Virus record (IMG/VR): IMGVR_UViG_3300025266_000044
Coordinates: 1 to 23,775 of that record
Source of the DNA: a virus
Length of the DNA stretch: 23,775 bases
Direction: 5' to 3' (one strand)
Of the stretch, positions 3,535 to 23,676 are shown one piece after another; the stretch's first letter is position 1, and every line of letters begins with the position of its first letter. Under the pieces are notes generated by a model, which was not told the origin of the DNA, ran no database searches, and saw nothing but the letters and a program-made list of their open reading frames with translations. Position numbers and translations under genes: made by a program.

Positions 3535-4199
3535 CAAAAGTAGCTCCGTGGTCTTTCAGTAAGATCAAAGCATTTGAACAATGCCCTAAACAGTTTTACC
3601 ATGAGAAGATATTAAAAGAACATCCGTTTGTTGCAACCAACGCAACTCGATATGGAACTGAATTTCATACTGCAGCAGAAGTATTCGTGCGTGATAGTAC
3701 ACCACTAGATAAACGATTTATATTTGCGTTACCTATGTTAAAATCTTTACTGGCAAAACGTGGTGAGAAAATACCAGAACAAAAGATGGGATTAACTGAG
3801 AACCTACAACCGTGTGGCTTCTTCTCAAAAGATGTATGGTTTCGTGGCATTGCCGATTTAATAATACTGGACGACGACTTAGCATGGGTGATAGACTACA
3901 AGACTGGGAAAAACGCTCGTTATGCAGATAAAGGGCAACTTGAATTAATGGCGTTGACTTTGTTCGCTCATTACCCAAAAGTAAAAAAAATAAAAGCTGG
4001 ACTATTGTTTGTTGTTAGTAAAGAGCTTATAAAAGATAAGTACACTGAGTTTGATAAAGCCGAGCTATGGAAAAAATGGTTAGGTAAATACGAACGAATG
4101 TGTTCCGCTGCCGAAACAAACACTTGGAACGCTAAACCTAGCGGACTGTGCAAGCGTTACTGCCCTGTCACTGTCTGCGTTCATAATGGGAATCACTAA
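3531..4199 (+). CDS. Cas4/RecB-like PD-(D/E)XK nuclease with a predicted Fe-S cluster
   Basis: The 222-aa protein matches the RecB/Cas4 exonuclease fold (PDDEXK_1). Visible motifs are an N-terminal SFSKIKAFEQCPKQFYHE with C18, GTEFH with H46, GIADL with D109, WVIDYKTGK with D122 and K124, and QLELMAL with Q136. Three C-terminal cysteines (C207, C211, C216) together with C18 form the pattern that in Cas4 and AddB holds a 4Fe-4S cluster. Family members act on ssDNA ends, usually 5'-3'. Its ATG overlaps the polymerase stop (ATGA), so it is coupled to polA and probably works in end processing or recombination during replication. No cas1 or cas2 gene is present, so a CRISPR adaptation role is not supported. 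Confidence 0.88.
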   Translation: MTKVAPWSFSKIKAFEQCPKQFYHEKILKEHPFVATNATRYGTEFHTAAEVFVRDSTPLDKRFIFALPMLKSLLAKRGEKIPEQKMGLTENLQPCGFFSKDVWFRGIADLIILDDDLAWVIDYKTGKNARYADKGQLELMALTLFAHYPKVKKIKAGLLFVVSKELIKDKYTEFDKAELWKKWLGKYERMCSAAETNTWNAKPSGLCKRYCPVTVCVHNGNH

Positions 4200-4471
4200 T
4201 GAGAAAAAAACAATTTAACAAACCTGTTGGTAGTAAAGAGTTTAAAGCACGTATGGAAAGACAACGCCTTAGACGTAAAGTAGATAAGACAGGTAAAGAT
4301 GCTAACAACAATGGTGTAGCTGATAAACGTGAGGGTAAAGATCTAGCACATAACAAACCTTTGTCTAAAGGAGGATCTAACAAAGATGGGTACAAAATCC
4401 AAGACAAAGCAACAAACCGCCGAGGTGGGGGAAAGTTAAGTCGAGGAAAAAGAAAAACAAAGAAAGCGTAA
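4199..4471 (+). CDS. Tiny basic protein, candidate HNH-like nuclease
   Basis: This 90-aa protein is extremely rich in Lys and Arg at both ends. Its middle resembles a compact HNH (beta-beta-alpha-metal) core: DLAHNKPLSKGGSNKDGYKI followed by KATNRRGGGK, with candidate residues H51, N61 and N73. The HxxPxSxGG pattern with later Asn residues is typical of HNH nucleases, but the zinc-holding cysteines of larger members are absent. The start overlaps the previous stop by one base. Sitting between a Cas4-like nuclease and an SNF2 helicase, it could nick or cut DNA. A basic DNA-coating protein without catalysis is the alternative. The family call is moderate; the gene itself is well supported by position. 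Confidence 0.6.
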   Translation: MRKKQFNKPVGSKEFKARMERQRLRRKVDKTGKDANNNGVADKREGKDLAHNKPLSKGGSNKDGYKIQDKATNRRGGGKLSRGKRKTKKA

Positions 4472-4491
4472 ACAATAACACGGAGAACGAC

Positions 4492-6092: not shown

Positions 6093-6491
6093 ATGAGTGA
6101 AAATGAAGGGCTCGCCAAAAAACTAACGCGCGTATATATAAAAATCCGTGATGAACGGGTTAAACTTGCGTCTGATTATAACAAACAACATGGAGATCTT
6201 ACTGAGCAATTAGATAAGATCAAACACGCACTACTTGAATACTGTAAAGAGCAGGGTATCGACAGTGTAAAAACATCTGAAGGATTATTCTATCGTTCAG
6301 TCAAACAACGTTATTGGACTAGTGACTGGGAATCCATGCACAAATTCATACTTGAACACGAAGTACCTGAGTTCATGGAAAAACGTCTAAATCAAACGAA
6401 CGTGAAAGCTTTCTTAGAAGAAAACCCCGATCTCGCGCCTCAAGGGCTAAACGTAAATTCAGAATATATAATATCAGTAAGGAAAAAATAA
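6093..6491 (+). CDS. Phage protein of unknown function, helical
   Basis: The 132-aa product begins with about 50 residues of charged helix (LTRVYIKIRDERVKLASDYN and on) likely to form a coiled coil. It is followed by GLFYRSVKQRYWTSDWESMH, a helical EHEVPEFMEKRLNQ part, a proline-containing turn (PDLAPQGLN) and a final strand (YIISVRKK). The layout recalls Gam-like phage proteins that bind DNA ends, but this similarity is of form only and I do not assign it. A strong AGGAGA site precedes the ATG. It is first in the block behind the predicted promoter and is coupled to the next HTH gene by a one-base overlap, so it probably acts with the replication proteins. Confidence 0.65.
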   Translation: MSENEGLAKKLTRVYIKIRDERVKLASDYNKQHGDLTEQLDKIKHALLEYCKEQGIDSVKTSEGLFYRSVKQRYWTSDWESMHKFILEHEVPEFMEKRLNQTNVKAFLEENPDLAPQGLNVNSEYIISVRKK

Positions 6492-6727
6492 TGGCTAAAC
6501 ATTACGTACCTGTTGAAGACCTAGCGGAACGTTTCTCTGTTTCCGTGCCCACTATCCGTTTATGGGTTAAAAAGGGAGCTATACCAAGTGATACCTATAT
6601 AAGAGTAGGTACGACCTATAGATTTTGTATGGATAGTGTAACTGCCGCATTGTTAACGGAAAAAAACGTAGCCATCAAAGACAGCACACACGATGTTGAA
6701 TTTGTTGATCTAGATGATGATTTTTGA
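6491..6727 (+). CDS. Second AlpA/MerR-like helix-turn-helix protein with acidic tail
   Basis: The 78-aa protein has an N-terminal HTH (YVPVEDLAERFSVSVPTIRL then WVKKGAIP) of the excisionase/MerR type, followed by a strand pair (YIRVGTTYRFCMDSV) and a strongly acidic C-terminus (FVDLDDDF). It shares the HTH-KKG-P pattern with the protein at 597-797 but is not closely similar elsewhere. The start overlaps the preceding stop by one base and AAGGAAAA is upstream. An acidic C-terminal tail is unusual for an excisionase and resembles SSB-type interaction tails. Regulation or origin binding is inferred from the HTH alone. Confidence 0.7.
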   Translation: MAKHYVPVEDLAERFSVSVPTIRLWVKKGAIPSDTYIRVGTTYRFCMDSVTAALLTEKNVAIKDSTHDVEFVDLDDDF

Positions 6728-11276: not shown

Positions 11277-11313
11277 TCTCCGTGCCCCCCTTCTGCGAGG
11301 TCTTTCTCTTTCT

Positions 11314-11342
11314 CCCTCAAAGTTGGGGGGACTTTTATCCCC
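11314..11342. terminator. Second hairpin region between convergent genes
   Basis: CCCTC (11314-11318) can pair with the G run at 11325-11329, and is followed by ACTTTTAT, a short T-rich tract that suits plus-strand termination. Alternatively GGGGA (11327-11331) pairs with TCCCC (11338-11342), a perfect 5-bp stem reaching the stop codon of the minus-strand giant gene. The two structures exclude each other. The region probably separates the two converging transcripts, but neither stem is strong. Confidence 0.4.
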
Positions 11343-14300
11343 TACTCATTTCTACCAAACATATTTATGGAACGGCGTTCTATTTCATCTGCAACCTGAC
11401 TGTTTATTAATATACCATTAACCATCTTTCTTCTTGTTTTTAATGAAGATGATTGAGAATCGTCTAATGTGTTTTGAGTAATTTCTGCAGGACCGGGATG
11501 ATCTTTATTAAACTCTAATATATCAGGCCATATTTCCGCTTGTAACCTTGTATCACCCATATAAATAGCCAAGTTCATTTTTGCAAGAATATCAGAACGT
11601 CTAGTAATTACGGCAGTCTCTACTCGTTTTTTATACATATTTTTCTCTTGTATAAGAGCATACTCTGCAGGGGCAAATCCCATAAACTGAGCAATATACT
11701 GATACGTACCTAGTTCAAGGTATATAGGGTCTTGTTTCCTTGTGCGCATACCACCGTCTTCTGCATAACGACCCCACGGAGAACCTTTAACCATATTTGC
11801 TAATCCAGCAGGTAATAGGTTTTCAACTCCTCGAACCATATCACCTTCAGATAAATATTCATAGCCCCTTATCAGCCGTTTCCCTGTGCTAAGTGCGGGA
11901 CCACCTGCATAAAAAGCTGCCAATTCTTCAGGAGTCTGATCAGCCTTAGCAAATCTGTTTTCCATAAATAACAATCCAGATAATCGAATACGGTCCGATA
12001 TGTTTAAACCTGTTAGCTCGTTTATCGCCCCTTTATAAAACCCTTCTCCTACGTATCTTCGTACTATGTCATCTGTTAGATCATCTTCTTCCTCTGCTCC
12101 AAGTAATGGAAGAAGCATTTTATCCACAAATACTTTTACTGCCCCATACAATGGTATACCACGTACTCCAGAGAAAAATAGAGCACTCATGTTTGTGCCT
12201 ATAACGCGTTTCAAAGCAATACTTTTTTGTTTTTTACCTTCAACAGTGTCAGGTAGGCTACTATCTATTAGCTGATACGCGTCCATAAGCATAGTGGTGT
12301 ACATAGTAAGACCATAACTTTTATACATACCTGCTACTCGACCTAAACCTTCTCGAAGTATAGGAGCTCCTGATTCTAGAGAAGTACCACCGTTAGTAAA
12401 TTGTGTGCGGGTATAAGCTTCCTCGACCGCAGAGCTTATTTGTGCATCAGTAAGTTTTTTACCCTTGTTATCTTTTTTCCTTTTTGCCACTGCTAATTTA
12501 TAAGAAGCAACAGTAATAACCTGACGATTAAATCGTTCTGACTGATTGAACATCATACCCGATAAAGCAGTTGCTATATCTAATCCTTTAGTTAGTATGC
12601 CCTTTTTTCTAGAACCTATTTCATTTAACCCTATAGAATCATACACTATGTTGTTATGAAGTTTAGCTCGTTTATAATTATCTTGTATAACGGGTATAAG
12701 TTCGGTCAATTCTGCTTTACGGTCGTCTGTTAAGTTTATATCGTCGCGGACAGTAAAATCACCATTTTCATCTATATTATAATAGGCAACATCTACACCA
12801 TAAGCTAAACTTGCTTTTTTCGCGAGATAAGATAACTGATTTGTAAGCCCTTTTTTTGTTTCTTCTTTATTCGCATATTTTCTAGAACCAACTACGAGTG
12901 CCATTGCCTCTGCAAGTGCAACAGCAGTGTCTTTATATCCGTATTCAGCTCCTAAATATTGACCCGCAAACAAAGGTATTTGAAATAGTTGAACTATTGC
13001 AGAAGAAACGTTAAACCCAATAGTATACATAAAGGCAATTTGATTTAATACGCGAATCTTCGTACCAAGACTTTTATATTTAGCACCACTCTTTGCGAAG
13101 TTAGCGCGGTCTTGAAAAGAATTTACAACTTGAGTTATATTTCCTACGGCGGTAGTGTCTGTATTTATTTTATTACCATCTTTATCTACCGCACTTAATT
13201 TTTCCTTGAGTTTAGTAAACCTGCGATCCAATTCTCTATCGAGAGCACCAAGTTCGCGAGTGTATTTAATTTTAATCCTTGCTTGTGCCAACTCAAAAGG
13301 TTTACTACGAAAAGAATCTATAAAACTTCCATCATATCCGGGAACACCTTTACGAGCTAAAAAAGATTTGGCAACAGTCATTTCGGGTGCGTGACTAACT
13401 ATTGTTTCTATGACTTGATTAATTACTTCTGTAGGTACTTTTCCAGCCCCCTCACCCGCATTTGCTCTAAGTAGATCTAAAACTCTCCCTGAATCTGTAT
13501 CTCCACGTAAACCATAACCATCTGCGTCAGCTCCTTTAGGATAACTTTTTACATCCTTAATTCCAGATATTTGTGATAAAGCCGCTACAAGTTTATCTTG
13601 TTCTCTTTTAGTTTCCCGACGTTCTACAACTCTTTTTTCTACACCTTGAGAGCCATCTTTTTTTGTAGGTGTATAATTATAGGCAACTACGAAATCACCA
13701 TGACGTTGTAAAGGGAAATACACTACATTATCCATGTCACCGTCAGGAAAAATTTTCTTTAAAAGATTGTTTTTTAATTCATTTGCTACTTTTGCATCTA
13801 ATCCATAACCATCGACTAGTTTAAATAACGTGCTTTTTAACTCTTTAAATTCATCCTTGTAAACGTCACGCTGCTTTTTGAATATACGAAGAAATTCTGC
13901 TCTCTTTCCCCCTAACTTTTTTAGCACAGCCTGTTGTTTATCCCATACCTCTGCTAAGTCATTACCACTTTCATCAAGTTTACCCTTACCATTTTTGTCT
14001 GTGTAATCAACTCTATCTTTAGTAGGGTCAACATTATACATTGTAGCGCCGTAATCTACATTATAAATAATATCGTCCATTACTTCAATTAGAGTAGAGT
14101 TCTTCTCAGCCCAAGCTTCCACTTCATCACGTATTATTTTAAGTCGATCCCTTGTACTTTCTTGTTCTCCTCGTTGCCTGTCTGTAAGAGTGTTGAGACT
14201 AAATCCTAATTCACCGAATCCAGCAGATCTTACAAGGGCAGAAAATTTTATACCATCGAGCGCATTTATTAATATTCCTTTACCTGCATCTGTAGCTCTT

Positions 14301-17300
14301 TCAACTAAACCAAATAGTGAATCACCCATAGCAGCAGTGTTAATTTTAGGTTTGCCAGAATGAGTTTCCTCCGCAATCTTACCTACATTAGCTTGCGCCA
14401 ATTCTGGTTGATTCAATGGACGTACGTTAAGAGAATTTGGAGCGGGGGCGAAAATAGCTTCTACCACTGAATCAAATTCAGTTAGAGCGGAAGTAATAGA
14501 TTTTGTTTTCCTACCGATAATTCTAGCTATTAAATTACTCAGTATATTATATAGACGATCTATAGCAGTTATTTTTTTCCCATCGGGATATACTGATCCT
14601 AAACTAGCTCTAAACGATTCGTTGCCGAGGGCCTCAGCTACAAACTCATAAATATTAGTTGCTCCGTACTCGGTACTAATTAAATGTTGTACATCAGAAA
14701 ATAGTTTATTGAGTTGCTTTGCGGATACAGAAGTACCTCTGTTTAGATCGGCAACAGTAATAGCGTGTCCCATTTCGTGTATTATAGTATGGGCGTTGAT
14801 ACCAGTTATAGAGTCAAGACTAATGGTATTTGTTTTAGGATCATACATACCCGCTAATTTAGTGCCTTCAGCATCGGTAAGATTATCTACTATTTTTACG
14901 TTTGTAGTTCCAGCAAAGTTCGAAAGTTTTTTTGCTATTGCAGCAACGTACGGACTAATGCTTGTATCTCCAAGAGCCAGTAGAGCTGCAGATATATCTC
15001 CATCTTGTAGAGCCGTTAACACACTATCATTTATTTCTTTGTTGAAGTCCACTACGGCATCAAAAGGTAAAGGTAAACCACCACCAAATATAGTTTTGAT
15101 TATCCTATCCGTTTGCCGATTAGTAAGAGCGGTTTCAAATTTCTCTTTTGACATACCAAATTTTTCAGCTAACCGTGTAGTCTCTCTATCTATCCTAGCA
15201 TCTTGTATTGCTTCAGATTCAGTTGATTTTTTTTCAATTCCTATAAGATCTATAAGTACATCTAATTCTTTTTCTAAATTAGCAAGATCTTTCTTATTAG
15301 CCGCGTTAGCCTTTTTTTCTGCGGCATTTACAATTTTTTTAGCTTCATTAGTAATTTGACGTTTGTCGGGATTTTTAATACCACGCTTTTTTAATGTGGA
15401 TTCAGCAGTCTTTCGTACATTAGCTCGACGTTTTGTTTCAACTTTTTTCTGTGCGGCCCTTCTTTCGGCAGTTAAAGCGTCTTTCTTCTCTTTTCTTTTT
15501 ACTCGTGCAGCTTTAGTTTTTTTGTTTCTCTTTTCGTCTATATCAGCTTGTGTTTCTATTTGAGACAAGGTTTCCTTTTTATCAGGTTTTCCTAACGATT
15601 TACTTTCTTTCTGTGCTTCAAGAGCGGACTCTACTTTTTGGACTTTTTTAACTTCTTCCGCAGTAGCAATGTTCTCTGATATCTCAGCTTCAGACTTCCC
15701 CGATATTACGGTGTTCGTAGTTATATTTTTTCTATCTTCGTTGTATTTTTTTGTACGCTCTTTTATTTTTGTGTTAGCGTCTTCAGACAAATTATTCTCA
15801 GCCCAAGCTAAAAACTCTTTGGCATTTTCTTGACCTGATTTTCTACCAGTACCTTCTATTGTTTTTTCTTGTGTTGCCGCAGCTTCGTCATTAGCTAATT
15901 TTGTCTGTTTATTTTTACTGAAGGTTTTAAACTCAGGGTCTTTTCTTTCTAATTTTTCTCTTGCAGCCTTCGTTTGAGACGCGTCTGCTTGATAGTCCGG
16001 TATCTTCAAGCCTACGTCTCCAGCAGCGGACTCAAACACATCAGAACGATTAGTATAACGACCCGCGTAATCTTTCGCATTCTTTATTGATTCTTGAGTG
16101 GCTAAAACTTTTTCAATTTTTATTTTTTCTTTTTTATTTTTTTTCGTGAATTCTTTTATCTCAGTTTTAACGAAGTCACTGTTAACATCTTTACCTATTA
16201 TTCTTTTGCGTATAGGAGCGGTATTTCTAATTCCCATATCAGTTAACATGTCATTAGTAACTAAAACAGGAGAGTCTATAAGGGCATCAACTTTTGCTTT
16301 GTCCTCGACTGAAATGCTCTCACTAAGTTCACCCGCTCTACTATCTACGTCAGCTATTACTGTAGTACTTTCTGCATCTGGATCAACTATTACTGCATTA
16401 CGCTCAGGGCTTGTTCTTCGTACAGCATCTCTAGATACTCCGCTAATAACATCCACTCCTCCTGCGTCAGGTGTTGTAACGTTTTCGGTATTATCGACGA
16501 GCTGTCCATCTTGTCCAGAATCTGAAACGTTAATTCCGTCTGTGCTTGTGTCAAGTGGCTTAACAACATTTGAATTCCTTTCAACGTCAGCGAGTCTATC
16601 TGCTTCTAATCCGTCTGGAGTATCTACTGTAGTATTCTCTACCTCTGTTTCAGGGTCAAGATTAAGATTTACAGGAGGCTGCACGCCTTCAAATAATTCA
16701 CCTTGGGCCCTTTGTTTTATTTCTGTTGTATTAGACGGAGTATCTTCATACGCGCTGACAGGAATTTCTATATTGACGCGAGCAAGCTGTTCTGCGTTTT
16801 CCACATCTTCTTTTGTTTTGGCTTCAGTAGCTACTGCAGCCGCCGTATCCGCTATTTCTTTATCCCTTTTAGCTTTTATAGTAGGACGTAATTCTGTTTT
16901 CTTAGCCGCAAGTAATGTTTCATAATCTGCGGTGCCGGGAAGTGCTTTTACATTTGGATCATTCTCAAGATCTACCTCAGCCGCTTTACCTAAGTACTCC
17001 GCTATTTCTACCTCGTCGTCAAGATTAGTTATAGTTTCTTCGTTTAAAATGTTTTCCCTTATAACATCATCTCTTTTATTTTGGGTTTCCTGTTCACCTA
17101 CTTCGTTCAAAAGTTCGGTTAAAGCAACAATAACTTTTTTATTTTGTTCGGACGGATTATTTTTTTCTGCTTCAGTAGCGGTTGTAAGAACTTCAATTAA
17201 TTGTTGTCTGTTTAGTCTACCTTTACTAAACTGCGCTTTAATATCTCTGACCTCAGTTGGAGGTCCTTTACCTACATTACCCACACCACCAAGAGCACTA

Positions 17301-18304
17301 CCAACCATACCGGCAGCTATAGCTACATCTAAGTATTCTGAAATAGCTTCGTCACTATCTAAAGACAACCCCGCTTGAGCGCGTTCTAATAATGATTGTC
17401 CAAGTTCTGTAGGCACTTCAGCTACAGTACCCTGCGCTCCACCTCTTGCAACACGAGTAAATACCCCACCATTCTTCATCATACCTTTGTTAAATAAAGG
17501 TATTTTACCTATAAATATTCTATCAACAACACTATCTAAAAGAGCTTGTGGTATCGCAGTTAAGAACGCAGCACCTTCGTTTATTTCAGTTTTTATACCT
17601 AGATCTACAGATTCTTTCTGCCGTTCTCGGTTTGATCCATAGAATAAAGGTAGTTGCGTTAGTGCAGCACCTGCAAGTCCAATAATTCCACCAGCAACAG
17701 TTCCCAACCCGGGAACTATAGAACCTGCGGCAGCGCCCGCAGCTAAACCACCGAGAAGACCGGCGCCTGTTTGAGGTAAAGTTTGACCTAAAGTTTCAGC
17801 AAAATAAGTTGCACCTGAACCAATATCATCGACGTCTTGGCGACGTGTAAGTTCTCCCGAAGCAGCTAGATCTGCTTCATTTTCGGCTACACCCTCAGCA
17901 CCATATTGTTGAAGAGTTTCTGAACCTAAAACATTACCTAACCCTTCTACTGCAGAACTTGCCGTAAGCTGCATATTATCTACACCCTTACCAAAAGCGT
18001 TAAAAAACCCACCTTGATCTGGATCAACATAAGTAGCCTCAGTGTATCTAGCAGTAGGATTATCAGTAGGCACAACAGGAATATCAGGAGAAATAACAGT
18101 AGGAGCAACAGTAGGAGCAACAGTAGGAGTAACAGTAGGAGTAACAGGAGCTGTTGAACGACCAAGAAGATGAGATATTATTTCTACATCTGAATAGTGT
18201 GCTCTTGCGTCATCTACATTAAAATTAGATTCACTAGCTAAATAGTTAGCGATTTCCAAATCTGAATAGTACGCTCTTGCTCCTGCAAGATCAAAATCGG
18301 ACAT
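11342..18304 (-). CDS. Giant polyvalent-type internal virion protein with zincin motif, 2320 aa
   Basis: This is probably a protein carried in the virion and ejected with DNA, like T7 gp16 in role though much longer (T7 gp16 is about 1318 aa). Residues 9-25 and 34-50 are two copies of an ARA-Y-SD-EI--L motif. A Thr-Pro-Val linker follows (55-70), then a Gly/Ala-rich hydrophobic stretch at about 179-222. Residues roughly 400-1100 are highly charged and helical with long Lys/Glu coils. H1176-EMG-H1180 is a zinc metallopeptidase HExxH, with E1220 or E1224 (YEFVAEAL) as a possible third ligand. Later come YFPLQRHGDF, hydrophobic segments near 1750-1785 and 2035-2070, and a charged end. AGGAAATAAT precedes the ATG. 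It is the last gene of its operon. Confidence 0.8.
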   Translation of the reverse strand: MSDFDLAGARAYYSDLEIANYLASESNFNVDDARAHYSDVEIISHLLGRSTAPVTPTVTPTVAPTVAPTVISPDIPVVPTDNPTARYTEATYVDPDQGGFFNAFGKGVDNMQLTASSAVEGLGNVLGSETLQQYGAEGVAENEADLAASGELTRRQDVDDIGSGATYFAETLGQTLPQTGAGLLGGLAAGAAAGSIVPGLGTVAGGIIGLAGAALTQLPLFYGSNRERQKESVDLGIKTEINEGAAFLTAIPQALLDSVVDRIFIGKIPLFNKGMMKNGGVFTRVARGGAQGTVAEVPTELGQSLLERAQAGLSLDSDEAISEYLDVAIAAGMVGSALGGVGNVGKGPPTEVRDIKAQFSKGRLNRQQLIEVLTTATEAEKNNPSEQNKKVIVALTELLNEVGEQETQNKRDDVIRENILNEETITNLDDEVEIAEYLGKAAEVDLENDPNVKALPGTADYETLLAAKKTELRPTIKAKRDKEIADTAAAVATEAKTKEDVENAEQLARVNIEIPVSAYEDTPSNTTEIKQRAQGELFEGVQPPVNLNLDPETEVENTTVDTPDGLEADRLADVERNSNVVKPLDTSTDGINVSDSGQDGQLVDNTENVTTPDAGGVDVISGVSRDAVRRTSPERNAVIVDPDAESTTVIADVDSRAGELSESISVEDKAKVDALIDSPVLVTNDMLTDMGIRNTAPIRKRIIGKDVNSDFVKTEIKEFTKKNKKEKIKIEKVLATQESIKNAKDYAGRYTNRSDVFESAAGDVGLKIPDYQADASQTKAAREKLERKDPEFKTFSKNKQTKLANDEAAATQEKTIEGTGRKSGQENAKEFLAWAENNLSEDANTKIKERTKKYNEDRKNITTNTVISGKSEAEISENIATAEEVKKVQKVESALEAQKESKSLGKPDKKETLSQIETQADIDEKRNKKTKAARVKRKEKKDALTAERRAAQKKVETKRRANVRKTAESTLKKRGIKNPDKRQITNEAKKIVNAAEKKANAANKKDLANLEKELDVLIDLIGIEKKSTESEAIQDARIDRETTRLAEKFGMSKEKFETALTNRQTDRIIKTIFGGGLPLPFDAVVDFNKEINDSVLTALQDGDISAALLALGDTSISPYVAAIAKKLSNFAGTTNVKIVDNLTDAEGTKLAGMYDPKTNTISLDSITGINAHTIIHEMGHAITVADLNRGTSVSAKQLNKLFSDVQHLISTEYGATNIYEFVAEALGNESFRASLGSVYPDGKKITAIDRLYNILSNLIARIIGRKTKSITSALTEFDSVVEAIFAPAPNSLNVRPLNQPELAQANVGKIAEETHSGKPKINTAAMGDSLFGLVERATDAGKGILINALDGIKFSALVRSAGFGELGFSLNTLTDRQRGEQESTRDRLKIIRDEVEAWAEKNSTLIEVMDDIIYNVDYGATMYNVDPTKDRVDYTDKNGKGKLDESGNDLAEVWDKQQAVLKKLGGKRAEFLRIFKKQRDVYKDEFKELKSTLFKLVDGYGLDAKVANELKNNLLKKIFPDGDMDNVVYFPLQRHGDFVVAYNYTPTKKDGSQGVEKRVVERRETKREQDKLVAALSQISGIKDVKSYPKGADADGYGLRGDTDSGRVLDLLRANAGEGAGKVPTEVINQVIETIVSHAPEMTVAKSFLARKGVPGYDGSFIDSFRSKPFELAQARIKIKYTRELGALDRELDRRFTKLKEKLSAVDKDGNKINTDTTAVGNITQVVNSFQDRANFAKSGAKYKSLGTKIRVLNQIAFMYTIGFNVSSAIVQLFQIPLFAGQYLGAEYGYKDTAVALAEAMALVVGSRKYANKEETKKGLTNQLSYLAKKASLAYGVDVAYYNIDENGDFTVRDDINLTDDRKAELTELIPVIQDNYKRAKLHNNIVYDSIGLNEIGSRKKGILTKGLDIATALSGMMFNQSERFNRQVITVASYKLAVAKRKKDNKGKKLTDAQISSAVEEAYTRTQFTNGGTSLESGAPILREGLGRVAGMYKSYGLTMYTTMLMDAYQLIDSSLPDTVEGKKQKSIALKRVIGTNMSALFFSGVRGIPLYGAVKVFVDKMLLPLLGAEEEDDLTDDIVRRYVGEGFYKGAINELTGLNISDRIRLSGLLFMENRFAKADQTPEELAAFYAGGPALSTGKRLIRGYEYLSEGDMVRGVENLLPAGLANMVKGSPWGRYAEDGGMRTRKQDPIYLELGTYQYIAQFMGFAPAEYALIQEKNMYKKRVETAVITRRSDILAKMNLAIYMGDTRLQAEIWPDILEFNKDHPGPAEITQNTLDDSQSSSLKTRRKMVNGILINSQVADEIERRSINMFGRNE
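18096..18143 (-). repeat. 12-bp tandem repeat, four copies, inside the giant gene
   Basis: The plus strand shows four consecutive 12-base units, two ACAGTAGGAGCA then two ACAGTAGGAGTA. On the coding strand they encode a Thr-Val-Thr/Ala-Pro linker between the duplicated N-terminal motif and the rest of the protein. A fifth partial unit follows. Confidence 0.85.
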
Positions 18305-18316
18305 ATTATTTCCTAT

Positions 18317-20041
18317 TTATGGGTTTACGGCTCTTACTTGTGCATAGGTAAGCCCGAAACTATTTGCTGCACGTTTTAGGTCTTCTAGTTTAGAGGAAAT
18401 ACCTGTTTCTACAAGCACGAGAGAAACTCTTGCCGCTAAGTCATTTTGTAGATCGTCCCTTATTTTTTTAGCCTCAGCTAATTTTTTAGGGGTTGTACCA
18501 CTTTGACCAAGTAAAGCATTATAATTACTTTGTGCCGCACTTAGACCTGTCGCTTGATCCGCTAATTCTGCATATATTTTTTCAGTTATATTTTTTATAG
18601 ATACGTCATACTCAGATAGAATTTTTAATTGTCTATCTGCACTTACATTTTGTATATTTAAGAATTCATTCTCACCTTTTATTTCATTAAACAAAGTAGC
18701 ATTATTATTCATTATACGAGTAGCGTCTGCTGCTGATTCACCTTTAAGTTTTGTAAGCTGTTTATCAGTCATAGCAGTTAATTTTTGTTCACCTTTTTCA
18801 CGAATAGTAAACTCTTTAGCAGTTAACGCAGCTTCTTTATCATCAAATTTTTCTTCTCCAGTTATTTGTTCTTCTAAGAATTCTTTCCGTTGTTTCTTTT
18901 GTTGATTTGTCAACGTAAATGTAGATCTAGCGAAAGCTCCCGGTCCACCTCCCATACTAGCCAAACCTTGTATTAGACGATCATCTTTAAAACTTGAATC
19001 ATCAAGACCTTCATTTTTAAATTTATCTAATAAGTCTCTTCGTTTTTTTAACTGTCCTTTTTTATCAAGTGTATCTAATTCCGATTGATAACCAGTGCCA
19101 AATATTTTTTCTTTGTCTGTAATCTTCTTTTTCATAAGTTCCTGTATTGCGGCTTCATCTAAAGGAGCTTGCTTTTTAAGATACTCAAAGGTTTGATCTC
19201 TATTAGCATTATTAATAACAGGAGGCTTAACAGTAGGATCAGTAGGTACACCAGCAAAAGAATTAAGGCCCGGTTTTTTTACATCAGTAGGAGCAACAGC
19301 ACCTTTTGGATCAACAGCAACAACACCTTTTGGAGCAACAGCACCTTTTGGATCAACAGCACCTTTTGGATCAACAGCACCTTTTGGAGCAACAGGAACA
19401 ACAGTAGAACGACTAGCTATTATTTCTTTTATTTCATTAGCATTAGTGTCTTTAGAATTAATTAAACCTAGTATTTCTTTGTTAAATTTAAAATCTGCGT
19501 CTGATTGCGGTGTATTCGAATCTGCAAGTAGTTTATATTCTTCTCTTAAAGCGCGTTTATCGGCTAAGTCAGTCGCAAACTTTATACGCTCTTCAAGTAG
19601 GTTTGCTTTCTCACGCCCCGCGGGAGAATTTTCAGGTGGATTATAAACTTCACTATTAGCGGATGCTCCAAAAGTACCTAGACCAGTTGAATAATTTCTA
19701 GCAACTTTTCCACCGTCGTCATAACCTTGAATCATACCACCTTCAGCAAATGCAGACATATCTCCAGCTATACCGCCGCTAGGGGGCATACCTATATTTT
19801 GCTGTTCGCCAATACCTTGACCAACTCCCATTTCGGCAGTGAGTTGCTCTTCTACAGTACCCGGCGTACCTTGAGCGGACAACTGTGCATTTACAGCCAT
19901 TTCCTCTCTTTCATTCTTTATATATTGTAGAGCTAGTAAATCCATAAGGTCATTACTTACACCATATCTTTCCTGCAACGCTTGAGGATTATCTCTAAAA
20001 GCATCAACACGTCCTTGTACATCTTGGTTTATATTTGGCAT
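18317..20041 (-). CDS. Virion-type protein of unknown function, 574 aa
   Basis: The product starts MPNINQDVQGRVDAFRDNPQ and continues with a helical region, then a Gly-rich part with AFAEGGMIQGYDDGGKV (about residues 97-113). In the middle is a low-complexity linker made of DPKGAV/APKGAV repeats. The second half is mostly charged helix, with AKEFTIREKGEQKLTAMTDK and DLQNDLAARVSLVLVETGIS. There is no signal peptide or enzyme motif. The gene lies 12 bases before the giant protein gene and 11 after the 614-aa gene, with AAGGAATAAT as ribosome binding site. Position and size suggest an internal or tail-associated structural protein, comparable to T7 gp15 in place only. The GG-x-GYDDGG segment recalls glycine motifs in other phage structural proteins. 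Confidence 0.72.
   Translation of the reverse strand: MPNINQDVQGRVDAFRDNPQALQERYGVSNDLMDLLALQYIKNEREEMAVNAQLSAQGTPGTVEEQLTAEMGVGQGIGEQQNIGMPPSGGIAGDMSAFAEGGMIQGYDDGGKVARNYSTGLGTFGASANSEVYNPPENSPAGREKANLLEERIKFATDLADKRALREEYKLLADSNTPQSDADFKFNKEILGLINSKDTNANEIKEIIASRSTVVPVAPKGAVDPKGAVDPKGAVAPKGVVAVDPKGAVAPTDVKKPGLNSFAGVPTDPTVKPPVINNANRDQTFEYLKKQAPLDEAAIQELMKKKITDKEKIFGTGYQSELDTLDKKGQLKKRRDLLDKFKNEGLDDSSFKDDRLIQGLASMGGGPGAFARSTFTLTNQQKKQRKEFLEEQITGEEKFDDKEAALTAKEFTIREKGEQKLTAMTDKQLTKLKGESAADATRIMNNNATLFNEIKGENEFLNIQNVSADRQLKILSEYDVSIKNITEKIYAELADQATGLSAAQSNYNALLGQSGTTPKKLAEAKKIRDDLQNDLAARVSLVLVETGISSKLEDLKRAANSFGLTYAQVRAVNP
19302..19397 (-). repeat. 18-bp tandem repeat coding for a PKGAV linker
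   Basis: CACCTTTTGGATCAACAG-like units recur on the plus strand, with the CCTTTTGG core at 19302, 19326, 19344, 19362 and 19380. Spacing is 18 bases except the first interval of 24, which adds two residues. The units encode alternating DPKGAV and APKGAV on the coding strand. Confidence 0.82.
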
Positions 20042-20052
20042 TTTATTATTCC

Positions 20053-21897
20053 TTACCCATACAACTCTTTAAGTATTGACATTATGTCGGAAGTATTACC
20101 TCCAACTTTACCTACAGTGCTCGGTTCAATGTACCCTGTAGATTTGTTACTCATTGGTAGACCAGTCATCAAACTTTGCATTTGCATAAGTTTTTTATAT
20201 GGGTCGTCACGTTCAAGATTAAACTGATCCATATCAGCAGTAATACCTTCTTTTTCAATTTCTCGTTGTTTATTACCCCCGATCATTTGAGCATTTAATG
20301 TATCCCTACCAAATTTATTAGTGTCTTCTTGCCCAGTACGGAACCTAGCTTCTTCACTTTCAAATAACCTACGTGCTTGGTCGTAAGCACTGTTATACCC
20401 TTTAGCTGTTACATCAGCTACATTCCGAAGCATATTACGTTGTCCTTCTGATTCCATAATAGCTTGACGTCCTCCGCCAAACGCACCAGCACGTGTTAAC
20501 CTGCCCGCATTAGCGTTACGTGATATATCAGCTTGCCTACGTGCTTCAGCAATTTGTGGTTCAAGAGAAGCTTGTAAGTATGGATTCATGTATTGTTGAG
20601 CAATATTTTGCTGTGGTTGTTGTGGCGTAGGCATCATACGTTGATCTTGCATAGGAGGGCGTTGTGGCCCACCACCCATAATTTTTCTAATTTGGTCTGT
20701 CATTTGTGGGTTATTAGGCATCATATTTTGCCTAGCTTCGGGTAACATCTGCCGCCTGTTTTGTGGTAACACTTGAGGTTGTTGTGGAGCTTGCGGTTGT
20801 GGTGGCCTACGACTTGTCATACCAGACTCATCAACAGGGCTAAAATCTTGAAGTTGTGAAGGGTCACCACCAGAAGGTTGTGCTACCTGTGCCATCATAT
20901 GGCTATCTATTATTCTGTCGGCCTCGATTTCCGCAGGAGTTCTGTTCGCATATTTTATACCTATCGCTCTGTCATCCATTTCTCTCTGCGCATTATTATA
21001 TATTCCTTCCCTATTGCTCCCTTGCATCATTTTGAAAGTTTCTAGTTGTGCATCTGAATATCCAGTTTCAGGCATAGAATATCCTGTCCCTGCGTTTGCT
21101 CTATTCTCATTATACCTGTCGTTAAAACCTCGATACTGCAATCCATCTATATTAGCACCGTCTTGGAAAGTACCCTTACCCCAATTACTTCTCAGTCTTT
21201 TCATCGCTTCAGCATGATCAGCTTCAGTAGGTTGGGGCATTTTCCCGTCTGCTGTGAGAGGACCTTGATAGCTAGTAGCACCTTGTGGAGGAGGTGCTTG
21301 GTATGCCGTAGGAGCAAAGGCAACTCCATCAGGGGCAGTAGGTTGATCTGAGTAGTAATAGTTATTGTGTTTTTGTGTACGTTCTTGCTGATTGTATGGC
21401 TTAGGAGTAGGAGCTTGATATGGACCTGATCGCATTAGGGATTGCATACCTTGTTGACCTACTTGTGGTGCAGCCATATCCATCATAGGATTCATAGGTT
21501 GACCCATCATAGGATTCATAGGTTGACCCATCATAGGATTCATAGGTTGACCCATCATAGGATTCATAGGTTGACCCATCATAGGATTCATAGGCTGTTG
21601 AGCACCGGGTATTTGCGGAGTTTGCCCTGTAAAAGATCTAGGTTGATATGCCCCCATTTGTCCTGTTGGCACAGTAAGGTTAGCCAACCCTTGGAAGGCT
21701 TGGTTTTGCAAGTCAGAGTATCCAGCAGATATTTGCCCTTTATAACCTTGATACGGTTGATTAGCTACCGCCGCACCTTTACCTAGCATAGTGGTAGCGT
21801 AGGGACCTATATAACTAGATAGTGTATTTTCTACTCCCGCAGGTTGTCCTACTACAGAGCTTGAGTTTAAAAATCCTTGATCTAATGGACCTGCCAT
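20053..21897 (-). CDS. Gln/Pro/Met-rich virion-type protein, 614 aa
   Basis: The first 90 residues contain a compact part (LSSYIGPYATTMLGKGAAVA; PYQGYKGQISAGYSDLQNQA). Residues about 101-140 are five tandem MNPMMGQP-type repeats. Residues about 140-435 are low-complexity, rich in Gln, Pro, Asn and Met. A C-terminal helical domain begins near 436 with YMNPYLQASLEPQIAEARRQ, continues with AGRLTRAGAFGGGRQAIMES and ends with DDPYKKLMQMQSLMTGLPMS. From memory this C-terminal block is recurrent in marine phage genomes next to virion genes; no biochemical function is known to me. AAGGAATTATT precedes the ATG. It lies between the 589-aa and 574-aa genes with gaps of about ten bases. A structural or ejection role is inferred from context. 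Confidence 0.72.
   Translation of the reverse strand: MAGPLDQGFLNSSSVVGQPAGVENTLSSYIGPYATTMLGKGAAVANQPYQGYKGQISAGYSDLQNQAFQGLANLTVPTGQMGAYQPRSFTGQTPQIPGAQQPMNPMMGQPMNPMMGQPMNPMMGQPMNPMMGQPMNPMMDMAAPQVGQQGMQSLMRSGPYQAPTPKPYNQQERTQKHNNYYYSDQPTAPDGVAFAPTAYQAPPPQGATSYQGPLTADGKMPQPTEADHAEAMKRLRSNWGKGTFQDGANIDGLQYRGFNDRYNENRANAGTGYSMPETGYSDAQLETFKMMQGSNREGIYNNAQREMDDRAIGIKYANRTPAEIEADRIIDSHMMAQVAQPSGGDPSQLQDFSPVDESGMTSRRPPQPQAPQQPQVLPQNRRQMLPEARQNMMPNNPQMTDQIRKIMGGGPQRPPMQDQRMMPTPQQPQQNIAQQYMNPYLQASLEPQIAEARRQADISRNANAGRLTRAGAFGGGRQAIMESEGQRNMLRNVADVTAKGYNSAYDQARRLFESEEARFRTGQEDTNKFGRDTLNAQMIGGNKQREIEKEGITADMDQFNLERDDPYKKLMQMQSLMTGLPMSNKSTGYIEPSTVGKVGGNTSDIMSILKELYG
21481..21600 (-). repeat. 24-bp tandem repeat, five copies, in the 614-aa protein gene
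   Basis: On the plus strand the 24-base unit beginning CATCATAGGATTCATAGGTT repeats five times without gaps; the first four are identical and the fifth diverges in its last bases. It encodes repeated PMNPMMGQ on the minus strand. The near-identity of copies points to recent expansion by slippage or recombination. Confidence 0.93.
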
Positions 21898-21906
21898 AAT
21901 AATTCC

Positions 21907-23676
21907 TTATCCTAATCTACTTATATATTTTTGCGGATTAATTTGTTTGCGTTGTTTTTTACTGCCTGTACTATCGTCCCGTATTTCAGCCATCATTTTT
22001 TCCAATAATTTAGCTCCAGCATTTGAGTTGCCGTTACCAAAATGACTAACTACATCGGCAGGGATTACGAATTCTCCGTCACTCAATGCGGCTGGTTGTT
22101 CACCGTTAATACTAGCAGGGATTTCGTCTGTCATACCGTCAGTTATACCCCCTAAGAAATATCCATTAGGGTTTGGATTGTTTCCTACTATACCACCAGC
22201 GTTCATAAAACGTGGTTTACCCATTATTCGTCCATAGTCATCTTTATTCATTACGTTAGTAATATATTCAGACATTGGATTTACGCCTGTTCTCATATCT
22301 CTACCGAAGATTGGCTGCTCATTGTAAGCGGCACTTGCACGTTGTAAGTCACCCATATCACTTTCAGGGAAAATTCTTTTACCTTCAGGAGTAAAAAACT
22401 TTGGGTTATCAGCATAATATTTAGCCATCTGAGCTTTGCCTTGGGGTGTTTGGAACATGTTAACAACTTGCTCCTCTTCATAGTCTCTATCACCTGCGTC
22501 GCCGATAGCAGCCATTTCTGCATCAAATGGTGAAGTAGGTGGGCGTTGTGACTCAATATAATCTTGGTATGTGGCATCTTTTATACCCATAGAATCAGTA
22601 GCCATATTTTTAAACTTGTTTAAGCCACTTTCTTTAGCAAATTTAGATAATTCTTTTCCTTTTTTAGTTTCTTCACTACCAAAACCAAATACACCACGAG
22701 CAATAGGTTTTATTATATGTTTACCAACTAACTCCGTACCGTACCGTGCCGCAAGAAAATAAGGGGTTAAGTACGCTACTTGAGCCGCTGTAGGAAGAGC
22801 ACCTATTTTTAAACCTACTTTTGAGGCTACTTCTGGCCCTATAGCGTCTATAGTTGCGTTAGTAATCGGTTTACTTGCCATATCAAAAGTTGCTGCTTCG
22901 ATTGCTGCGGGACTATTACCAACAATAGAACCATAACCAGTAGAAGCAGCTTTATCTGCTCCAAACGCAGCTATGTTACCCCCTAGATTAGCAGCGGTCT
23001 GACTAGCAGCATTAACACCTGCAATACCACTAGCAGCGTTAGCACCACCCACAGCCATATCAAAAGCTGCTGTTGGTATAGCACCAATAGGGTTAGCGGG
23101 TAGAAAATTAGCAATATTAGCACTAGCGTTTGGTATACCACTAGGAGCACCACCAATACCTAACGCATTAGCACCCGCCTTTAAACCTCCGCCTACGGCA
23201 TTTATGCCCTTACCTGCATAGTCAAACAAAGCTCCGTTTGTAAGTTCGTTAAGTGATAAAGCTGTTAAACCACCAGTTAAAAGATCACCACCAGAAATAC
23301 CCGTACCAAGTATACCATTACCACCACCACTAATAGAACCATAACCAGCAGGGGCAACATTTTGTGCGCCAAAGGCATCAGCATTGATAATACTTCCTTG
23401 ACCCTTAGCGGGGTTAAATTCACCACGAGTAAAATGATCCCGCCCAAAATTATCTTGTGTGTAATCTCTAGGAACTACCGGAAGTTGCTCTCTATTAAAA
23501 TCTAGGTTAGGAATTCCACCTTGATACCCTGATGTAGGTATATTAGGATCAGCTAAACCACTTTTATTCAAAAGGATACCACCACCAAGACTAGCCATTT
23601 TACCAAGTTTAGTTAGTTCTCCTCCATTATCTACTACGTAACTACCTACTTTTGCAAGTGTATCAGTCCAAGCCAT
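21907..23676 (-). CDS. Gly/Ala-rich virion-type protein with a C-terminal GEFVIPADVVS module, 589 aa
   Basis: The first half is low-complexity Gly/Ala/Asn sequence with short hydrophobic stretches (GGGILLNKSGL; SGGDLLTGGLTALSL; TAAQVAYLTPYFLAARYG). A charged helical part follows (ETKKGKELSKFAKESGL), then a PFDAEMAAIGDAGDRDYEEE segment. The C-terminus carries MNAGGIVGNN, GYFLGGITDGMTDEIPA, and LSDGEFVIPADVVSHFGNGN, then KLLEKMMAEIR. Related 'DxxPAxLxxGEFVxxxxxV' modules occur in many phage structural proteins, including tape measure proteins; their function is not known to me. GGAG nine bases before the ATG supports the start. The gene is the first large one of the minus-strand operon here. 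A tail or internal virion role is inferred. Confidence 0.72.
   Translation of the reverse strand: MAWTDTLAKVGSYVVDNGGELTKLGKMASLGGGILLNKSGLADPNIPTSGYQGGIPNLDFNREQLPVVPRDYTQDNFGRDHFTRGEFNPAKGQGSIINADAFGAQNVAPAGYGSISGGGNGILGTGISGGDLLTGGLTALSLNELTNGALFDYAGKGINAVGGGLKAGANALGIGGAPSGIPNASANIANFLPANPIGAIPTAAFDMAVGGANAASGIAGVNAASQTAANLGGNIAAFGADKAASTGYGSIVGNSPAAIEAATFDMASKPITNATIDAIGPEVASKVGLKIGALPTAAQVAYLTPYFLAARYGTELVGKHIIKPIARGVFGFGSEETKKGKELSKFAKESGLNKFKNMATDSMGIKDATYQDYIESQRPPTSPFDAEMAAIGDAGDRDYEEEQVVNMFQTPQGKAQMAKYYADNPKFFTPEGKRIFPESDMGDLQRASAAYNEQPIFGRDMRTGVNPMSEYITNVMNKDDYGRIMGKPRFMNAGGIVGNNPNPNGYFLGGITDGMTDEIPASINGEQPAALSDGEFVIPADVVSHFGNGNSNAGAKLLEKMMAEIRDDSTGSKKQRKQINPQKYISRLG

Follow-up and report, generated by a model that had tools for sequence, protein, structure and literature searches.

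Phage proteins in which a zincin metallopeptidase forms part of a very long chain are already known, both among the polyvalent proteins and among ejection proteins. In the polyvalent proteins described by Iyer et al. 2017 (PMC5512222; NF032893; PF18858), a metallopeptidase (MPTase) zincin, an LPD39 domain and a tail-700 domain occur in this order in very large products of late genes. The virion RNA polymerase gp50 of phage N4 contains a homologous domain, C1, and N4-like virion polymerases are devoid of cysteine, which has been proposed to ease their passage through the tail or the periplasm (PMC2784036, PMC3715699). Further described systems are the internal core protein of phiKMV-type phages (Ab05 ORF42; 9sfn) and the tetrameric ejection protein gp48 of Pectobacterium phage phiM1, which is part of a solved ejectosome (8vb2). 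The present analysis concerns a protein of 2320 amino acids (aa) encoded on the minus strand of IMG/VR virus record IMGVR_UViG_3300025266_000044, an uncultured virus whose entire record of 23,775 bases, probably a fragment of a genome, is called the window. By its predicted domain content the chain is a phage polyvalent protein, and it belongs to a widespread and barely studied family. Very probably it is an ejected virion protein, and its zincin is likely to be catalytically active. The features on which this assignment draws are as follows.

11342..18304, minus strand: giant cysteine-free polyvalent protein of predicted ejection type, 2320 aa (open reading frame (ORF) and translation; no cysteine; a relative is encoded on 269 viral contigs)
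14435..14992, minus strand: predicted zincin metallopeptidase domain, residues 1105-1290 (AlphaFold2 model, 46-sequence alignment, PDB profile matches, hhalign with N4 C1)
14765..14779, minus strand: HEMGH motif, H1176/E1177/H1180 (invariant in 46/46)
14633..14668, minus strand: YGxxxxxEFVAE motif with Y1213, G1214, E1220, F1221 and E1224 (alignment)
13757..14284, minus strand: LPD39-like region, about residues 1341-1516 (PF18858 in the equivalent region of relatives)
11393..13723, minus strand: PLxRFG/tail-700 C-terminal helical domain, residues 1528-2304 (NCBIfam NF032893, E=1.2e-68)

The ORF is as an earlier note on this DNA had given it, with an ATG start and no internal stop, and its HEMGH (residues 1176-1180) is the sole HExxH of the chain. 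Over residues 1105-2304, the protein was aligned with 45 non-redundant viral relatives; H1176, E1177, H1180, G1214, F1221 and E1224 are invariant, and Y1213 and E1220 are each kept in 45 of the 46 sequences, the conservation of HExxH having to be read with regard to the fact that these sequences were retrieved by similarity to the 2320-aa protein. As judged from the alignment, the conservation pattern of the zincin is beyond chance. The AlphaFold2 model of the same residues (pLDDT 77.4, pTM 0.69) places strands at 1135-1139, 1152-1155 and 1160-1164, a helix with HEMGH at 1171-1189 and a helix with E1220 at 1218-1227, and three strands, an HExxH helix and a later helix make up the core described for the MPTases of polyvalent proteins (PMC5512222). 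Alignment and model together thus contain the HExxH, the later acidic ligand and the three-strand core of a zincin-like domain, and with the matches to PDB profiles they bear out the metallopeptidase centre that the earlier note had placed at H1176. The third zinc ligand is probably E1220, because this residue aligns with the third zinc ligand of lethal factor; E1224 is invariant in the family, yet N4, phiM1 and the phiKMV-type protein lack it. Binding of zinc by the domain would follow from its homology.

Relationships to the described systems became visible at the level of profiles. Compared with the PDB, the 46-sequence profile matched phiM1 gp48 (8vb2, E=4.6e-5) and an internal virion protein (9sfn, E=3.3e-4) and showed a weak resemblance to the lethal-factor zincin (E=0.044), while phmmer with the single sequence found nothing there. 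In the residues at which it aligns and in length, the entry 9sfn coincides with the internal core protein of Ab05, for which hhalign against the zincin gave 92% (E=6e-7; reversed-sequence control 0.057). For the C1 domain of the N4 virion RNA polymerase, represented by a profile of relatives, the value was 96% (E=5e-9). The zincin is also matched in tblastn by gp076 of the crAss-like phage phi14:2 (E=1e-6), annotated as "structural protein" from tandem mass spectrometry. Foldseek with the 1200-residue model gave no match in the PDB at E<=0.001; against viral models, large polyvalent proteins matched strongly and internal virion proteins less so, and the module is matched at E=2e-45 by models that already stand in viral structure databases under the name "large polyvalent protein-associated domain-containing protein". 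Two giant DarB-like proteins carry two HExxH sites each: in Parlo (L003) the upstream one, at 1195, matches the zincin profile (E=2.8e-14), and in JC1 (L196) neither does.

With N4 gp50 the 2320-aa protein shares the zincin, an N-terminal segment, the giant size, the absence of cysteine and the position at the end of a late block that faces genes of the opposite strand; it differs in the missing RNA polymerase domain and in its C-terminal helical domain, for which profile comparison detected no homology to N4 C2. On the grounds of these comparisons, the protein is a distant relative of the N4 virion RNA polymerase. Ab05 ORF42 likewise has the zincin, is free of cysteine and is the last of three cysteine-free core proteins, but it measures 1337 aa and has no tail-700 match at the sequence level. 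The HExxH domain of phiM1 gp48 is homologous, whereas the protein has 1263 aa and its authors call residues 268-528 endolysin/exotransglycosidase-like (PMC11440229); the match to the zincin profile, 351-539, overlaps this region, and that paper does not mention a metalloprotease. From the polyvalent proteins, with which size, late-gene location and domain order agree, the 2320-aa protein departs in having no recognisable nucleic-acid effector domain and in the N4-like helical domain and fast-evolving linker that precede its zincin. Among the relatives found, the nearest isolated phage is Rhizobium phage RHph_TM29, whose 2328-aa protein (L017) agrees in length, closely in the positions of zincin and tail-700 and in the absence of cysteine, although identity is only about 24-31% in the parts aligned by BLAST. 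A full-text search of the accessible literature found no paper that joins a zincin metallopeptidase, an internal virion protein and ejection.

The absence of cysteine extends beyond the giant protein. In the window, the four late genes encode no cysteine in 4097 residues as against 52 in the 3522 residues of the plus-strand genes; about 60 would be expected (Poisson P about 5e-27). The family as a whole has five cysteines in 157,549 residues, compared with 10.4 per 1000 in the other ORFs of the same loci, a background that is conservative because it includes the cysteine-free neighbours. In 37 relatives, the gene immediately upstream has none in 21,587 residues, and the convergent primase has 11-17 in each case. 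Similarly, N4 gp50, gp51 and gp52 have no cysteine, while gp53, gp54 and the portal protein have two to four, and three phiKMV-type core proteins are free of cysteine, unlike the portal and the tail tube. The trait also occurs outside ejected proteins, as the N4 major coat protein has none. As far as literature was found, the extension of cysteine exclusion to a non-polymerase family and to a whole late block is new. Absence of cysteine has been noted in Zobellviridae, with a virion polymerase inferred (PMC10747016); there, the giant cysteine-free proteins of Zobellviridae and StenR_269 were called putative virion RNA polymerases on the basis of size, helicity and lack of cysteine (PMC10747016). 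The present family shows the same traits without a polymerase domain, and large size together with zero cysteine is thus not enough to call a virion RNA polymerase. Neither the total absence of cysteine nor the PLxRFG/tail-700 domain had been noticed in the earlier note.

The N-terminal part of the chain comprises the following features.

18155..18304, minus strand: duplicated helical-hairpin motif, residues 1-50 (46-nt repeat, AlphaFold2 helices, tag counts)
17270..18022, minus strand: conserved helical Gly/Ala-rich domain, residues 95-345 (phrog_6958, UFV-P2 tblastn, family alignment)
17642..17731, minus strand: hydrophobic Gly/Ala stretch, residues 192-221 (Kyte-Doolittle maximum 1.68)
17279..17473, minus strand: segment with predicted homology to the N-terminal domain of N4-type virion RNA polymerase, residues 278-342 (hhalign)
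14993..17257, minus strand: charged, poorly conserved linker, residues 350-1104 (composition and family alignment)
16145..16264, minus strand: linker island 1, residues 681-720, "LD..GippqsPirkrL.GKD.nDP" (family alignment)
15755..15844, minus strand: linker island 2, residues 821-850, "AkavldWa.eNLS" (family alignment)

Residues 95-345 match phrog_6958, "virion structural protein" (E=2e-18), and, in tblastn, a structural protein of Pseudomonas phage UFV-P2. Within this domain, residues 278-342 align with residues 378-443 of the N4 polymerase (hhalign 90.5%, E=1.4e-6); as controls, the same N-terminal profile gave 0.25 with the N4 polymerase domain and 0.92 with the N4 C-terminal domain. Moreover, phrog_2206, "virion RNA polymerase", is matched by five of 39 family N-termini. 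The duplicated N-terminal motif reported earlier corresponds to a 46-nt direct repeat, 76% identical and with a spacing of 72 nt (24 residues), at 18180-18225 and 18252-18297, and each copy is modelled as a pair of short helices. In relatives, the motif of residues 1-50 is replaced by "YxVxxPDG..GPEGA" (24/38) or "ADAAGDxxAAR" (8/38), and tblastn with this part found nothing; it is probably an exchangeable N-terminal tag. The start of one relative (L033, 5689-6348) looks lysozyme-like by eye (EGFSD..Y.DG...TTGVGQT), which was not confirmed by Pfam or phmmer.

The Gly/Ala-rich hydrophobic stretch was likewise found as claimed, at residues 192-221, and is a possible membrane-inserting segment. 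The charged coil of about 700 residues held only in part: charge is strong at residues ~400-1100, with "coil" being a matter of composition, and the linker, which by alignment evolves fast (mean top-residue frequency 0.24 versus 0.45 for residues 95-345), encloses the two conserved islands listed. As to the two later hydrophobic regions, 1756-1774 just reaches the threshold (1.51) and the second is weaker in the 2320-aa protein, while relatives often carry a hydrophobic segment nearer the C-terminus. The membrane path proposed in the earlier note is plausible at most: the N-terminal domain of the N4 polymerase inserts into nanodiscs (PMC12633501), but the aligned N4 segment 378-443 falls outside the predicted N4 membrane helices, 224-278, and the later hydrophobic segment of the 2320-aa protein sits within the modelled helical domain.

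Towards the C-terminus, the zincin is followed by the LPD39-like region, significant in relatives only, and then by the PLxRFG/tail-700 domain. PF18858 matches the equivalent region of all eight relatives scanned (E 0.0017 to 2e-13) and lies above the Pfam cut-off in five (42, 35, 33, 47 and 51 bits versus 27); in the 2320-aa protein itself LPD39 gave no Pfam match, the cut-off not being reached. NF032893 scores 232 bits, over its cut-off of 100. Nothing significant was found by Pfam with the whole protein and its pieces, nothing by PADLOC, and no lytic transglycosylase domain of the T7 gp16 type (internal protein D) by Pfam, PHROGs or NCBIfam.

With the single sequence as query only one near-identical fragment was retrieved; the zincin region retrieved two collinear relatives (L019 and L020) with about 30% identity across residues 1078-2308, and search with the alignment of the three yielded the 269 viral contigs, from which a set of 80 was retrieved. 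In one scan of genome contigs from bacteria and archaea, no relative was found. Complete members measure 1760-2516 aa, and HExxH is present in every member that reaches the site. In complete relatives, genes for proteins of ~1000, ~260, ~290 and ~620 aa are commonly followed by the gene for the giant protein of 2000-2450 aa, which faces a primase/helicase of ~940 aa. A gene of this upstream set (~270-280 aa) matches phrog_4287, "DNA ejection protein", in L020 and L021, and the gene immediately upstream of the giant one in L020 carries lytic-tail/endolysin domains. A terminase match over the family cut-off is found in seven of nine longer relatives. The window conforms with a late-gene location of polyvalent type: the 2320-codon gene is the last of the minus-strand block and converges with replication, and in relatives the ejection-protein gene lies upstream. 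The virus is probably a short-tailed phage. In relative L092, a 186-aa ORF with six cysteines (3923-4483) interrupts the otherwise cysteine-free late block and is possibly an inserted non-virion gene.

Location in the virion and ejection, which the earlier note had proposed, are well supported, because homology to virion proteins, gene context, cysteine exclusion and the N4-like N-terminal segment all point to them. In the scenario preferred here, the giant protein would be made late and packed in the capsid with the neighbouring cysteine-free proteins, and it would be expelled through the tail, unfolded or loosely folded, before or with the DNA. Absence of cysteine would probably keep the protein from being trapped by disulphide bonds in the periplasm, which is oxidising. 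The N-terminal tag and the Gly/Ala-rich helical domain would probably dock the protein in the virion and then at the ejectosome or the inner membrane. The zincin would be an intact peptidase, active once packaging is over; its most likely targets would be ejected proteins, namely its own linker or the partners from the operon, and the cut would release the C-terminal domain or dismantle the transient channel. Burkholderia phage JC1 gp69, a giant cysteine-free DarB-like protein present in the virion (PMC9144972), was considered as mass-spectrometric proof for the family and was not used, since only a short C-terminal segment matched (E=1.8e-5).

Taken as a whole, an ejected pilot protein with an active zincin working after packaging is favoured with some reserve. 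Ejected phage proteins as the main substrate are favoured because the zincin, where evidence exists, belongs to internal or ejected proteins that are unlike each other in their remaining parts; this choice of substrate is nonetheless a guess and, taken singly, rated at somewhat less than an even chance. Other points weigh against the scenario as well: virion proteomics of the window virus or of a close relative was not found, there is no cleavage site found in the 2320-aa protein, and the N-terminal AlphaFold2 model is poor (pLDDT 62), with no fold match by Foldseek. To these has to be added that the N4 polymerase is reported to be packaged unprocessed despite its zincin and that polyvalent proteins elsewhere carry host-directed effectors (PMC5512222). 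The latter fact speaks for the view of the earlier note, according to which the zincin, once delivered, would act as an effector and cleave one specific protein of the host or the envelope; an ART-PolyVal ADP-ribosyltransferase match in one of 39 family N-terminal regions (E=5.4e-6) and the weak likeness to the lethal-factor zincin point in the same direction. The zincin, however, recurs in phages that infect E. coli, Pseudomonas, Pectobacterium, Rhizobium and Cellulophaga as well as in uncultured phages, so that any substrate from the host would need to be almost universal. Because the domain persists across such different hosts, a phage-derived or universal envelope substrate is favoured over one host protein, and a host-directed effector is considered unlikely.

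Slightly less credit still is given to two other roles of the zincin. As a peptidoglycan peptidase it would open the wall for the ejectosome, in line with the overlapping published label of phiM1 gp48 and the domains encoded upstream in L020; wall hydrolysis, however, is assigned to another gene of the block where it is visible (the lysozyme Ab05 ORF41; L020, L039), and no peptidoglycan-peptidase family of Pfam, PHROGs or NCBIfam matched the 2320-aa protein. As an assembly or maturation protease it would process the chain itself or partner proteins, either ahead of packaging or while it proceeds, as might be expected from P1 DdrB, which has an MPTase domain and is processed before packaging (PMC5512222), but not from the N4 polymerase, which has the homologous zincin and is packaged unprocessed (PMC5512222). 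That the whole chain is a DarB-like antirestriction factor shielding the incoming DNA is improbable: distant tail-700 relatives are annotated as DarB-like antirestriction protein, DNA methylase or Snf2 family helicase, whereas Pfam, NCBIfam, PHROGs and PADLOC revealed no methylase or SNF2 domain in the chain, nor any other nucleic-acid domain. Least credible is an N4-like virion RNA polymerase, as inferred for other giant cysteine-free phage proteins (PMC10747016). Size, zero cysteine, N-terminal segment and zincin would all suit it, but there is no polymerase domain, with profile comparisons against the N4 polymerase domain giving E 0.15-0.73 and the best hmmsearch match in any family member an iE of 0.14, and this identification is regarded as largely refuted.

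The useful part of the present data is a bridge in sequence between the N4 polymerase, the phiKMV-type and phiM1 core proteins, crAss-like proteins, polyvalent proteins and this family. It bears on how a protein of 2000-3500 residues passes a tail of ~3 nm and works beyond it, and on what the HExxH domain does in the N4 virion RNA polymerase and in the polyvalent proteins. Since the family joins these lines, mutating the catalytic site in a single model phage would be informative for all of them. The cysteine-free block may offer an easily computed marker of ejected proteins, whose evolution is too fast for searches by homology. A wider, rather doubtful proposal would be that one zincin lineage, comprising this family and the N4-like, phiKMV-like, phiM1 and crAss-like proteins, is a general part of DNA ejectosomes, cutting ejected phage proteins so that domains are set free or the channel is closed, and that near-total cysteine exclusion is a general predictive signature of ejected phage proteins.

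The remainder of the window consists of a plus-strand replication module (endonuclease, DNA polymerase, exonuclease, helicase, Gp2.5-like single-strand binding protein and primase/helicase) and, convergent with it, the block of four large late genes, of which the following precede the giant one.

18317..20041, minus strand: upstream late gene, 574 aa, no cysteine (position equals that of the ~620-aa gene of relatives)
20053..21897, minus strand: late gene, 614 aa, no cysteine
21907..23676, minus strand: late gene, 589 aa, no cysteine

The succession of 589, 614 and 574 aa before the giant protein resembles that of L096 (202, 572, 559, 2093), and no PHROG match was obtained for the three neighbours. 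In the 589-aa protein, the final ~80 residues match a protein found in phages of Synechococcus and Planktothrix (38.6%, E=2e-8). The 614-aa protein has 48 methionines and carries QPMNPMMG repeated in tandem, and the 574-aa protein contains short tandem repeats of the DPKGAV type and lacks His, Cys and Trp. Two small plus-strand proteins, at 561-797 and 6491-6727, have by eye a helix-turn-helix-like DNA-binding look (LAKRWGISRVWFYKLLKKG; LAERFSVSVPTIRLWVKKG). Between the convergent modules, at 11310-11344 on the plus strand, terminator-like hairpins are present, with four overlapping candidates versus 0.4 expected.

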